Source: Bacteroidota bacterium
GTDB lineage: Bacteria; Bacteroidota; Bacteroidia; Chitinophagales; Saprospiraceae
Length of the DNA: 64,000 bases
Direction: 5' to 3'
Assembly (NCBI GenBank): GCA_016124585.1
Contig: WGNL01000021.1
Coordinates: 62,001-126,000 of the forward strand
The translations under genes and the position numbers were made by a program. The notes below the pieces were generated by a model that was not told the DNA's origin, did no database searches, and worked only from the letters and a program-made list of their open reading frames with translations. This document shows positions 48,174-53,394 of this stretch, piece after piece. Positions within the stretch are counted from its first letter, which is position 1, and the number at the start of each line of letters is the position of its first letter.

Positions 48174-48716
48174 ATGTCAGATACAAATTCCTTCCTCGGC
48201 ATCGGTTCGAGGGTAAAACATCCCGCCTACGGTGACGGGGCCATCATTCGCCTACACGGGGCGGCTTACGAGTGCTGCTTTATGCTTTACGGCATCAAGA
48301 TGGTCGGCAAGGACTACGACAAATGGACGGTGACCGAGGCGATTCCCGCTGAAGCTGGGGTTTCATTTAGCGAAGCGGAAAAATCGTTGATGAAAGTGCT
48401 CAAGCACTGGTCGGACATCAGCGAGGTGGTGGAAATCGGCGACCGCTGGGACGGCGGCACGATGACCCTCAAGCCGAAAGACCCCGGCCTGACGCCAAAG
48501 GACGTGCCCATCGAGCAGTTTTTCCATAAAATCGTGATGGTGCGTGACCGCCTGCGGGTCATGGAGCAGAAAATCAATGCCAGCAAACTCACCGACGCAG
48601 AGAAGGTGGAATTGCAACAGTATATCACCCGCATCTATGGCAGTTTGACAACTTTCAATGTGCTGTTTAAATATAAGGAGCAGCAGTTTGTAGGGGATAA
48701 GGGGAAAGGTGAGTAG
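48174..48716 (+). CDS. Unrecognised 180-residue protein with Tudor/CarD-like N-terminus
   Basis: A 180-residue soluble protein. Residues 8-55 read as a small beta-barrel: GIGSRVKHPAYGDGAIIRLH, then CCFMLYGIKMVGKDY, similar in layout to the KOW/Tudor-like start of CarD or UvrD C-terminal domains (G..V.H..fG.G.v). The middle is charged, and residues 118-165 form two helices (EQFFHKIVMVRDRLRVMEQ and ..DAEKVELQQYITRIYGSLTTF), possibly a helical hairpin. The family is unknown to me. The start codon is immediately preceded by an inverted word repeat. GC content is high, as in the neighbouring cluster. Confidence 0.6.
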   Translation: MSDTNSFLGIGSRVKHPAYGDGAIIRLHGAAYECCFMLYGIKMVGKDYDKWTVTEAIPAEAGVSFSEAEKSLMKVLKHWSDISEVVEIGDRWDGGTMTLKPKDPGLTPKDVPIEQFFHKIVMVRDRLRVMEQKINASKLTDAEKVELQQYITRIYGSLTTFNVLFKYKEQQFVGDKGKGE

Positions 48717-48817: not shown

Positions 48818-50161
48818 ATGAAACATAAACTCACCCTTTCCATTACGCTGTTTTCTTTTTTTGTTTTTGTCCTCCACAGTTGCCTTATCATGGAAGGCAG
48901 CTTCACCAAACTCCCCCCCGGCCCTTGGCGGGCAGCGCTGAAACTCACACCTGAGTTCATTTCCCCCAATCCAAAAGGACAGCCGCTGCCTGAGAAAGTG
49001 AATATGAAGTTTGCCGATGTGAACGAAAACGAACTGCCGTTCAATTTTGACGTGGTGTACGACAACGATACCAGTTTTCACATTGAAGTTATCAATGGCG
49101 ACGAACGAATCGTCGTGCCAGCTTCTGACATTCAATTCGGGAGGAGCAAAAAGCGCTCGCAGGATACAATCCGCATCAATTTCCCGATGTACGAATCCTA
49201 TATCACCGGGGCTTTTGCGGGCAATACCATCGAAGGCAATTGGATGGTGACGACGAGGGAAAACTACGCCATCCCTTTCATTGCGAAGCAAGGCCATGAC
49301 TGGCGTTTCACTGCATTACGCAAGCAACCAGCGATGGATTTGTCGGGAAAATGGGCCTGTAATTTTGGCTTAGAATCTTGGCCAGAGGCAGAAGAACCTT
49401 TTCCTGCCATCGGGGAATTCAAACAGGATGGCAATCGTCTGATAGGAACTTTCATGACGGAAACTGGCGACTACCGCTTCCTGGAAGGTACGGTGCAGGC
49501 TGATAAATTCTACCTTTCCTGTTTTGACGGCGCCCATGCTTTTCTTTTTCAGGGAAAAATATTGGCCGATAGTACCCTCACGGGCGCATTTTTTTCTGGG
49601 AAACATTATCGCACTACTTGGACTGGGAAACGTGACCCAAACTTCAAACTGGCTGACCCAGATTCGCTGTCATTCCTCAATCCCGGCTACGACAAACTGG
49701 CTTTTTCCTTCGTAAACCCCGACGGCAAAACCATCTCGCTTGACAATCCTGAATACGAAGGCAAAGCAAAAATTATCCAAATCATGGGGACTTGGTGCCC
49801 AAACTGCCGGGACGAGACGGCTTTTTTGGTCAACTTTTTGAAGGAACAGAACCCGCAAAACTTGGCAGTGATTGCACTGGCTTTCGAGAAGCATGCTGAT
49901 AAAACTAGCGCTGACAAAGCCATCCGCATTTACAAGGACCGTTTCCAGATGCCCTACGAAGTAGTGTACGCTGGAACTAACAAAAAAGCTGAAGCAGCTA
50001 AAGCTTTGCCAATGCTAAAGGAAGTTTTTGCCTACCCTACCCTCCTTTTTTTAGACAAAAACAACCAGGTCGTGAAAATTCATACCGGTTTTAGCGGTCC
50101 TGCTACTAGCGAATACGCTTCATTTAAAGAAAACTTTAATAAGTTTGTATCACAATTCTGA
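48818..50161 (+). CDS. TlpA-like thioredoxin-domain lipoprotein with WCPNC motif
   Basis: A 447-residue exported protein. The N-terminus (ITLFSFFVFVLHSCLIMEGS) has a signal with a lipobox-like LHSC. Residues ~25-290 are beta-rich, with DUF4369-like character and two similar parts (IEGNWMVTTRENYAIPF; LTGAFFSGKHYRTTW). The C-terminal ~150 residues are a thioredoxin fold with IQIMGTWCPNCRDETAF and the cis-proline segment FAYPTLLFLD. The WCPNC pair differs from the WCxPC of most TlpA proteins. It likely handles periplasmic disulfides. The upstream gap holds a hairpin. Confidence 0.82.
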   Translation: MKHKLTLSITLFSFFVFVLHSCLIMEGSFTKLPPGPWRAALKLTPEFISPNPKGQPLPEKVNMKFADVNENELPFNFDVVYDNDTSFHIEVINGDERIVVPASDIQFGRSKKRSQDTIRINFPMYESYITGAFAGNTIEGNWMVTTRENYAIPFIAKQGHDWRFTALRKQPAMDLSGKWACNFGLESWPEAEEPFPAIGEFKQDGNRLIGTFMTETGDYRFLEGTVQADKFYLSCFDGAHAFLFQGKILADSTLTGAFFSGKHYRTTWTGKRDPNFKLADPDSLSFLNPGYDKLAFSFVNPDGKTISLDNPEYEGKAKIIQIMGTWCPNCRDETAFLVNFLKEQNPQNLAVIALAFEKHADKTSADKAIRIYKDRFQMPYEVVYAGTNKKAEAAKALPMLKEVFAYPTLLFLDKNNQVVKIHTGFSGPATSEYASFKENFNKFVSQF

Positions 50162-50163
50162 GT

Positions 50164-50240
50164 ATTTGAGGAAAAATTAGTTTGAGTATTTGAGGCTGCG
50201 CCCAATCTCAAACCTTCAAACGCTCAAATCTTTGAATCCA
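50164..50240. repeat. Intergenic inverted repeat built from TTTGAG words
   Basis: Left arm GAGTATTTGAGG and TTTGAGTATTTGAGG; right arm CTCAAACCTTCAAACGCTCA then AATCTTTGAAT. It lies in the leader of the TIR-TPR-SDR gene, ending 8 bases before its start codon. Confidence 0.5.
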
Positions 50241-50247
50241 CGAAAAT

Positions 50248-53200
50248 ATGTCTCAAAACAAGCAACACCTTATTGCATATCACCCTGACAACCAACAGGT
50301 TGCAACGGAAATCCGGGAAGAACTCGCCAAATTGGGATACATAGTGGACGGTAAAAGCCTTAATGCTGGAACCAATACCCCATTACGCCAATCCATTACC
50401 TCTCCTAGCGGTGCAGTGTTGCTGTTGGTCACAGACAATTTTCTCAAGTCTGAACAGTGCATGAACGGCGCCATGGAAGCGCTACAACACTGGGCCGACA
50501 ACGGCCAACTCGTGCCCATCGTAGCCGATGGCGTTCAAAAGCGGCAGGATGGGCCAGGTTGGGAGACGGTGCCAACTTCCTTTGAGCGGGTCAGCAATAT
50601 CATCCAGTACATGAATCATTGGCAAGACCAATATTTGTTGCTACGCAAAGAAAAAAGGGGGCATGAAGACGATGCTCAACTGGAGGCAAAAATTGAAATC
50701 ACGAAAACCGTGTCGGGTGAAATTGGTGAATTCTTGCGTTACCTACGCAACTTGCGCTGGTACAGTCTCGCTGATTTCAAGGCAGGAAATTACAAGGCTT
50801 TTCGCCAGTTCACTGATGAAGTCGCTATTGACGACGAACCCGTTGCTGATATGCCGCAACAACCTGAAGCTACTCAAGAAACCACTGTAGTTGCATCGAT
50901 ACCCGATATTGAAAATGCGCCGGAATCACCAAAGTCACAAGACGATGAGGAAACCCCACGGCAACGAACACTTGCAGAAATAATACAGGATTCTGGCGAT
51001 GAACTGATGGCTGAAAATTCAGACATTGGTCAGAAGAAGAACCTGCCCAAATCAGACGAACTCACAGTTGACTTGAATGACATACCTGGTATGGATTTAC
51101 TCAACCGCCTTGAACAAAAGGAAGAGCACAGCAACTCAAACCAGAAGTCCAAACAGGACGACGAGGAAGGCGTGGAAATTTCCTCCATTTTGAAGGAAGT
51201 ATTGGGGGAAGAAGATGGTGGTGAGGATTATAAGTTTTTAGGTGAAGACCCCGACCATCCTGAAGATTTCGACCTTGACTCCCTGTTTGACGAAGAGGAA
51301 CCCACAACAGAAAAAACAAGCGAAGTACCTGTTTATGAAGGGGATGAAGTCTCCTTGGAACTGGTTTCCGATGAGGAAGAAGGCTTAGTGCTACGAGCTG
51401 ATGGAAATGGTCATTCTACACCAGAAGAGGTGCTTGAACACGCCGTCCTACTCTTTGACGAGGGCCAAAAAGCCCAGGGCTTAGATTTCCTACGGCAAAC
51501 AGTGCAACTAAACGCATCTGACAACACGATGCGCTACTACTATGCGTACGCCCTCGCTCGGTACGGAAAAGACTTTGCCAATGCAAAAGGTCAATTGGAA
51601 GTTATTCTCGCCAACGACATGGAACATACAGATGCCCTGTTTTTGCTAGGAGAATTATCTGAAAACCAAGGCGAATTTGAGGAAGCCAAGCACAATTTTG
51701 AGACAGTTGCCGCCATTCAGCCTGATTTCCCTGAGGTATATTATAAATTGGGGATGTTGACTTTGCAGCATTTTGAAGGTCAGGAGAATTTGGCACTTGA
51801 GTTTTTCAAAAAATCGGTCGAGTTCAACCCAAAAAATGCAGACTCGCAATACATTTTAGCGACACTTTACAATGAATTTGCAGACGACCAACCTGCCGCT
51901 ATTAAGCATTTCAACCTTGCGCTGAAGTACAACCCAAAGCACGCATTTGCCAATTACGACCTTGCGCTGCTCCATTACCAATATGGAGACCCAAGTCTGG
52001 CCATTGAATACTACCAAAAGGCGGTTGATTTGAATCCAGAGCTGAAAACGGCAGAGAACGATGCGGCATTTTTAACAGCTTTGCAAACTGAGGAGCATGC
52101 AGAATCAGTTGAAGATGAAGAAGTCGTAGAGAAAGAAAGCATTGTTGAGATGAACGATGCATCAGCGCAAAAGCCAGAACCTGAGACCCCTCTGGACTTT
52201 TCCGAAAATGTTGAGGAAGCAATAAGTAATATCTCCGTAGCTACTGGAATTGCTGAGAAACAGGAAGAAGTTATCTCTCCAGACATTGAAGACACATTGG
52301 AAAATTTTGTGGCCGACGATGAATTAAATAAGACGGGTGGAAACGAGCCTGTTGCGGAACACATTGCCGATGCAGTTGAAGCAGCTATTCTTCCACTTTC
52401 TGAACACGAAGCAGAATCACCAACGCTGGAGGACTTGTTGGAAGCAGAGCCTGAAACTGAAATTGTACTGCCACCTCCTTCTACACCTGTTGCAGTAGCA
52501 AAATTACCTGTTGAACCAGGGCCCAAAAAATTCACAGCCACACTGGAGGACATCCTTGATCAAGAAGATGAAACCGAGGAAGACAAATTTGTACTGCCAC
52601 TTTCAAATGATAAGTCGAAGATAGCTGTCAAAACAGTACTAATTACAGGTGCCACTTCAGGTATTGGCAGGGCAACTGCCGAATTATTTGCAAAGAATGG
52701 CTACAGGGTCATCGCTACGGGTCGCAGAGCTGAACGATTGGAGGATATGTCCACTCATTTCAAGGAAAAATATCATAATGACCTGCTCACGTTGGCTTTC
52801 GATGTTCGCAATCTAGATGCTGTAAAATCAGCTATTGAAAACTTACCGGAGGAATGGCGAAATATTGACATTCTCATCAACAACGCTGGGCTATCACGTG
52901 GGCTTTCCCCTATTCATGAGGGTGATATTGAGCAATGGGAAACCATGATTGATACGAATATTAAAGGCTTGTTATACTTGACACGAGCCATTGCCCCAAA
53001 CATGGTAAAACGCCGGAGTGGACATATTATTAATGTAGCTTCTAGTGCTGGCAAGGAGGTTTATCCCGGCGGCAATGTTTACTGTGCCACCAAATTTGCA
53101 GTAGATGCGCTCACAAAATCCATGCGGCTTGACCTTTACACGCACAATATTCGGGTTAGCCAAGTAGCACCAGGTCACGTGGAAGAGACTGAGTTTGCCA

Positions 53201-53394
53201 GTGTTAGGTTTGATGGTAATACCGAGCGAGCTGCCAAGGTTTACGAAAATTTCCAGCCACTACGGGCAAGCGATGTGGCCGAAGTAATTTACTTCATGGC
53301 AACCCGACCACCACATGTCAACGTTCAGGATGTGCTACTTTTCGGAACACAACAGGCTGGTTCGAATTTTATTGATAGATCGGGCAGGCTATAA
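50248..53394 (+). CDS. TIR-like / TPR / short-chain dehydrogenase fusion protein
   Basis: A 1048-residue cytoplasmic protein of three parts. Residues 1-~160 look like a TIR fold: HLIAYHPDNQQVATEI, GYIVDGKSLNAG, GAVLLLVTDNFLKSEQCMNG, GQLVPIVADG. The glutamate expected three residues after the conserved Cys (C71) of NADase TIRs is G74. Acidic low-complexity linkers span ~215-390 and ~605-790. Residues ~392-605 are at least five TPR units (e.g. YKLGMLTLQHFEGQENLALEF, YDLALLHYQYGDPSLAIEYY). Residues 793-1040 are a complete classical SDR: TGATSGIG (800-807), NNAG (878-881), ASSAG, YCATK (Y945, K949). The SDR resembles YdfG-type 3-hydroxy acid dehydrogenases. A single frame with no internal stop supports a true fusion. 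Confidence 0.82.
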   Translation: MSQNKQHLIAYHPDNQQVATEIREELAKLGYIVDGKSLNAGTNTPLRQSITSPSGAVLLLVTDNFLKSEQCMNGAMEALQHWADNGQLVPIVADGVQKRQDGPGWETVPTSFERVSNIIQYMNHWQDQYLLLRKEKRGHEDDAQLEAKIEITKTVSGEIGEFLRYLRNLRWYSLADFKAGNYKAFRQFTDEVAIDDEPVADMPQQPEATQETTVVASIPDIENAPESPKSQDDEETPRQRTLAEIIQDSGDELMAENSDIGQKKNLPKSDELTVDLNDIPGMDLLNRLEQKEEHSNSNQKSKQDDEEGVEISSILKEVLGEEDGGEDYKFLGEDPDHPEDFDLDSLFDEEEPTTEKTSEVPVYEGDEVSLELVSDEEEGLVLRADGNGHSTPEEVLEHAVLLFDEGQKAQGLDFLRQTVQLNASDNTMRYYYAYALARYGKDFANAKGQLEVILANDMEHTDALFLLGELSENQGEFEEAKHNFETVAAIQPDFPEVYYKLGMLTLQHFEGQENLALEFFKKSVEFNPKNADSQYILATLYNEFADDQPAAIKHFNLALKYNPKHAFANYDLALLHYQYGDPSLAIEYYQKAVDLNPELKTAENDAAFLTALQTEEHAESVEDEEVVEKESIVEMNDASAQKPEPETPLDFSENVEEAISNISVATGIAEKQEEVISPDIEDTLENFVADDELNKTGGNEPVAEHIADAVEAAILPLSEHEAESPTLEDLLEAEPETEIVLPPPSTPVAVAKLPVEPGPKKFTATLEDILDQEDETEEDKFVLPLSNDKSKIAVKTVLITGATSGIGRATAELFAKNGYRVIATGRRAERLEDMSTHFKEKYHNDLLTLAFDVRNLDAVKSAIENLPEEWRNIDILINNAGLSRGLSPIHEGDIEQWETMIDTNIKGLLYLTRAIAPNMVKRRSGHIINVASSAGKEVYPGGNVYCATKFAVDALTKSMRLDLYTHNIRVSQVAPGHVEETEFASVRFDGNTERAAKVYENFQPLRASDVAEVIYFMATRPPHVNVQDVLLFGTQQAGSNFIDRSGRL

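Follow-up and report, generated by a model that had tools for sequence, protein, structure and literature searches.

A TIR fold joined through TPR units to a classical short-chain dehydrogenase in Saprospiraceae, with a possible assembly role for its N-terminal arm

TIR domains and short-chain dehydrogenases (SDRs) are both NAD(P)-linked folds, and bacterial TIR domains have been studied mostly as NAD-consuming immune enzymes. In the window, a stretch of 64,000 nucleotides from a Saprospiraceae genome, a single gene joins a TIR-like domain to an SDR, which raises the question of what the TIR domain does beside this enzyme. An earlier note, made from the letters of the DNA, held that the fusion could link NAD consumption to the dehydrogenase and favoured a scaffold role. 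Each domain is already known; for the TIR-TPR-SDR order and its apparently non-catalytic TIR lineage, the open-access searches made returned no paper naming this architecture and none on a TIR domain in Saprospiraceae.

The gene is one uninterrupted frame on the forward strand, from the ATG at 50248 to the stop at 53394, encoding 1048 aa, and the source genome has one full-length copy and no second. The order of the domains is TIR fold (residues 1-193), linker, six TPRs (391-616), linker and classical SDR (791-1048). The TPR_1 (52.8 bits) and TPR_8 (52.3 bits) models score above their cut-offs, several TPR models match, and the full-length model contains six TPR helix pairs (392-595) and a capping helix. 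Thus, the 1048-codon frame and the architecture described in the earlier note are borne out, the latter by the AlphaFold2 fold of the TIR domain and by Pfam for TPR and SDR, and its count of at least five TPR units becomes six. An assembly artefact was considered and ruled out by the complete fused frames present in many genera; 101 such frames were found among relatives, with lengths of 632-1259 aa (median 885). In the full-length model, based on an alignment of only eight sequences and less confident in its SDR part (residues 883-892, 932-944 and 975-1048 below 50), the block pLDDT of both linkers is mostly 23-45 and the overall pTM is 0.32, so that the domains are probably flexibly tethered and not fixed with respect to one another. 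The features of the locus are detailed in Table 1.

Table 1. Positions in the window of the fusion gene, its parts and its conserved upstream neighbours.
Feature	Coordinates	Strand	Evidence
Conserved upstream gene, unknown family	48174..48716	+	Homologues 60-74% identical
Thioredoxin-fold protein, conserved upstream neighbour, lipoprotein-like N-terminus (by eye)	48818..50161	+	AhpC-TSA/Redoxin
Whole ORF, 1048 aa, TIR-linker-TPR-linker-SDR	50248..53394	+	Frame, Pfam, full-length model
TIR domain with C-terminal helical extension, residues 1-193	50248..50826	+	AlphaFold2, Foldseek, VIA, conservation in relatives
Gly74 codon at the place of the NADase glutamate (Cys71+3)	50467..50469	+	Alignment of relatives
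Linker 1, residues 194-390, acidic, predicted disordered	50827..51417	+	pLDDT <50 at 191-377; dN/dS 0.22 (G001/G013)
IPGMDLL short linear motif, residues 279-285, within linker 1	51082..51102	+	Relaxed motif in relatives
Six TPR units, residues 391-616	51418..52095	+	Pfam TPR; helix pairs of the model
Linker 2, residues 617-790, predicted disordered	52096..52617	+	pLDDT <50 at 613-792; dN/dS 0.23 (G001/G013)
Classical SDR domain, residues 791-1048	52618..53391	+	adh_short; 3asu; N904, S932, Y945, K949

The AlphaFold2 model of residues 1-200, which rests on a ten-row alignment, reached a pLDDT of 87.7 and a pTM of 0.83. Its VIA alignments gave Z 12.4 with BtTir (128 residues, rmsd 3.2), 12.1 with PdTir and 11.9 with TcpB, and in the Foldseek search the highest-ranking matches were plant and bacterial TIR domains, although the E-values were modest, the best being 2.4e-4 and only two not exceeding 0.001. 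Pfam TIR_2 scored 25.5 bits with the N-terminal piece and 22.2 with the whole protein, both below the curated cut-off of 28, and a phmmer search of the PDB with the N-terminal piece returned two unrelated matches only (E 0.72 and 0.76). The pLDDT and the Z of the model support a TIR (flavodoxin-like) fold for the N-terminal domain, a point which the earlier note had left for checking. The fold is shared with the bacterial TIR NADases BtTir, PdTir and AbTir (Z 8.8-12.4); they differ in the glutamate at Cys+3, which is Gly here and unconstrained across the fused family, and in that TIR_2 stays below its cut-off here. It is also shared with MyD88 and Mal/TIRAP (Mal Z 10.5), adaptor TIRs without NADase function; non-catalytic assembly would be a further, putative likeness, whereas the TIR domain described here is bacterial and fused to an enzyme.

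C71 is present in the source protein, and Gly74 occupies the place where the NADase glutamate of helix C (Cys+3) is expected, in agreement with the first reading. According to passages of PMC9153377, NADase activity requires this helix-C glutamate, and TIR domains without it can still need TIR-TIR association. The position is Glu in five of 105 fused TIRs; at least 12 different residues occur there, among them Gly, Asn, Arg, Gln and Asp. By contrast, each of the 14 TIR relatives with another architecture has Glu; these are the 14 fetched out of 30 weak matches (hand count) of the family, order and phylum samples. Pfam typing of nine of these 14 gave TIR-TPR, AlbA-TIR, TIR-WD40, LRR-Roc-COR-EAD11-TIR and TIR with unassigned parts. 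On the other hand, Asn64 is present in 101 of 111 fused-type TIRs (105 fused and six TIR-only rows) and in none of the 14 relatives; Gln126, Tyr129, Leu130, Arg133 and Ser156 are likewise conserved in the fused type and mostly absent from those relatives, and five of the 12 positions flagged as specific to the fused type fall in helix 115-138. The fused L135, whose TIR scored low, is outside the 105 rows. The fused TIR thus keeps its fold and has gained conserved residues of its own, whereas the catalytic position is freed from constraint; it has probably ceased to cleave NAD, being in this sense a pseudo-TIR. The preference for a scaffold is supported by these counts, and the proposed coupling of NAD consumption to the dehydrogenase finds no support in them.

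The stand-alone bacterial TIR-TPR proteins L121 (G038) and L126 (G526) are matched by the same profile over the TIR domain and its helical extension, followed by TPRs; unlike the fused protein they keep the glutamate and are without SDR, and no thioredoxin-like or SDR match was found within the stretch fetched around them. A LRR-Roc-COR-EAD11-TIR protein (L129:1137-4667, G181) has a TIR domain related to the fused one, with the glutamate kept.

The SDR domain matches Pfam adh_short with E 3.2e-60 to 4.7e-59 and has TGATSGIG (800-807), NNAG (878-881), N904, S932, Y945 and K949, so that every classical residue listed in the earlier note is present. All four residues of the tetrad are present in 101 of 105 fused rows and in 37 of 37 'SDR-only' rows (25 same-family SDR-alone genes, seven same-order outgroups and five from fused or split genes). 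Of the 105 fused rows, 104 have Arg826 and 102 have Arg827, a pattern typical of classical SDRs that prefer NADP(H) and one which suggests NADP(H) as the cofactor. The closest solved sequence is PDB 3asu (E 2.1e-68), a serine dehydrogenase of the YdfG type, and the best NCBIfam model is PRK10538 (270.9 bits), the YdfG equivalog, whose cut-off of 411 bits is not reached. YdfG-type SDRs, which are NADP-dependent 3-hydroxy acid dehydrogenases, have the classical motifs and the tetrad in common with the protein described here, but this bears in addition a TIR-TPR arm of about 790 residues. Some variants were observed: in the fused SDR of G081 (L148:1757-4198) both Tyr and Lys of the active site are lost and the glycine motif is changed, so that a pseudo-SDR follows a pseudo-TIR, and in that of G082 (L188) the catalytic Tyr is replaced by Phe. 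The genomes of L188 (G082) and L160 (G172) have a second, stand-alone SDR of the same family (L256 and L257).

A TIR profile built from a 23-row alignment matched 120 of 199 sampled Saprospiraceae genomes at E<=1e-3, 113 of them with a fused-type TIR and seven with other TIRs only (hand count). TIR and SDR homology lie in one frame in 97 of these 113, approximately half of the 199 genomes (hand count); the 97 include G081 (degenerate SDR), G199 (broken SDR) and G218 (truncated where its contig ends). Among the other 16 of the 113, ten have the gene at a contig end or split over contigs (G021, G035, G173, G158, G167, G186, G145, G213, G205 and G023), G225 and G095 have it in two frames, which may be true splits or frameshifts, G200 has a short form, G137 is without SDR, and G084 and G183 have separate genes. 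The profile matched 29 of 198 genomes of the order sample and eight of 345 of the phylum sample; in both, strong matches (E<1e-20) are only in Saprospiraceae and those outside are weak (2.1e-17 to 5.5e-4). Among at least 60 relatives, the fusion recurs often within the genus and the family. Whether other genomes keep it had been raised at the outset as a check, and about a hundred do. At seven fetched loci of other families of the same order (L075-L081) the SDR is a free protein of 252-259 aa. The SDR gene is not universal in the family, since its profile matches 165 of 199 Saprospiraceae genomes at E<=1e-75 and the other 34 gave no match at that threshold. On a low-coverage MAG contig (L044:2505-5155), what appears to be a frameshift in the TPR region interrupts the fusion.

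Of the 98 testable fused loci, 85 have a thioredoxin-like gene upstream in the same orientation, at a median distance of 50 bp (eight fused loci are outside the testable set). The same holds for 23 of the 25 SDR-alone loci of the family, where the median distance is 3 bp, and for none of six testable outgroup loci. In the window the product of this gene matches AhpC-TSA/Redoxin, with ResA/TlpA weak and below cut-off. The gene before it matched no Pfam or NCBIfam family, and at 13 loci, fused or SDR-alone, a homologue of this gene precedes the thioredoxin-like one.

In the one close pair compared (G001/G013, NG86), dN/dS was 0.057 for TIR, 0.072 for TPR and 0.035 for SDR, which shows purifying selection on the three domains in this pair, and 0.22-0.23 for the linkers, linker 1 evolving faster than the domains; YN00 values were odd for some domains, and between the source gene and G001 synonymous change is saturated. 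Linker 1 has the motif IPG[LMIV][DNES][LMAQ]L in 38 of 105 fused rows (shuffled mean 0.0), L065, where the TPR profile had no match, being outside the linker counts. In the source protein the motif, IPGMDLL, overlaps a short helix predicted with low confidence in the full-length model (282-293).

Unfused forms also exist. In G084 (L219) and G183 (L245), of one genus, the thioredoxin gene, a TIR-TPR gene and an SDR gene are separate and 8-12 bp apart, so TIR-TPR and SDR stay together even without covalent joining. In G137 (L175:1694-4216) TIR-TPR lies behind the same thioredoxin-like gene and a different tail replaces the SDR; the best SDR elsewhere in that genome reaches only 2.7e-56, and the pieces are therefore not always needed together. 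Conversely, SDR stands alone at the 25 same-family loci, with the thioredoxin-like gene in front of it at 23, and the arm is thus dispensable for the SDR in those lineages. In a 139-row SDR tree, which labels the fused L135 as 'alone', the SDR-alone rows fall within the fused ones, and on this tree alone the arm would seem to have been lost. However, in an AU test on an 81-row subset, without L135, L219 and the fused rows beyond 49 kept, the fused rows as one clade are not rejected (p 0.394), and constraining the SDR-alone rows to one clade improves on the tree of the free search (p 0.658). The arm may thus have been gained once and lost in some lineages, or gained later. Both trees are without L148, L190 and L177 (degenerate, broken or cut SDR).

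On balance, we consider it probable, with some reservation, that the non-catalytic TIR-TPR arm assembles or targets an active, probably cytosolic short-chain reductase of NADP(H) type; assembly, partner and substrate are what we infer. An arm of this kind is the simplest account, because the catalytic position of the TIR is unconstrained, its fold and new residues are held and the catalytic residues of the SDR are kept. The TIR domain would be an assembly or docking module that either associates with itself or contacts a partner via the surface that has become conserved in the fused type. Further partners may dock at the TPRs and at the linker motif of IPGxxLL type, and these parts together, joined by long and flexible acidic tethers, would concentrate the active SDR or direct it to a target. 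Against this scaffold reading, five fused proteins keep the Glu, the SDR of G081 is degenerate and that of G082 has Phe for Tyr. A wider proposal is made only tentatively: that this is a widespread, apparently housekeeping adaptor TIR, of an immune-type lineage that lost its NADase chemistry, which builds or targets an NADP(H) redox assembly and whose gene order ties it to a thioredoxin-like lipoprotein. If true, it would be a bacterial counterpart of the adaptor TIRs and would show an immune domain turned to routine metabolism. The idea is directly testable owing to the unfused neighbour-gene form and the natural variants that keep the Glu, lack the SDR or have a degenerate one.

The TIR domain could instead be a nucleotide sensor, binding NAD(P) or a derivative uncleaved and regulating the SDR allosterically. 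Two NAD(P)-linked folds, purifying selection on both in the tested pair and the adjacent genes of G084 and G183 would accord with this, but the long disordered linkers speak against direct coupling of the domains and TIR-TPR outlives the SDR in G137, and we regard a sensor as rather unlikely. We think it equally doubtful that SDR and arm are functionally independent and the fusion merely co-expresses two neighbouring genes; the SDR is alone at the 25 examined loci and TIR-TPR in G137, as independence would predict, yet the fusion is kept in 97 of 199 genomes and the separated genes of G084 and G183 are still adjacent, in unchanged order. An anti-phage or abortive-infection protein consuming NAD like other bacterial TIRs is very improbable, for although TIR relatives occur in conflict-type architectures (LRR-Roc-COR-EAD11-TIR, AlbA-TIR, TIR-WD40) and five fused proteins retain Glu, these are only five of 105 rows, PADLOC gave no match for the protein or five neighbours, in keeping with the earlier remark that no obvious defence genes adjoin it, the first 200 residues had no plasmid or phage match, and the synteny recurs at one locus.

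In addition to the assembly or targeting role preferred here, two observations concern the surroundings of the gene. Pyruvate dehydrogenase E1 alpha is encoded directly downstream in 10 of 11 same-genus relatives. A direct repeat, TGAGTATTTGAGG, is present at 50159-50195 in two copies 24 bp apart, from the end of the thioredoxin-like gene and before the fusion.
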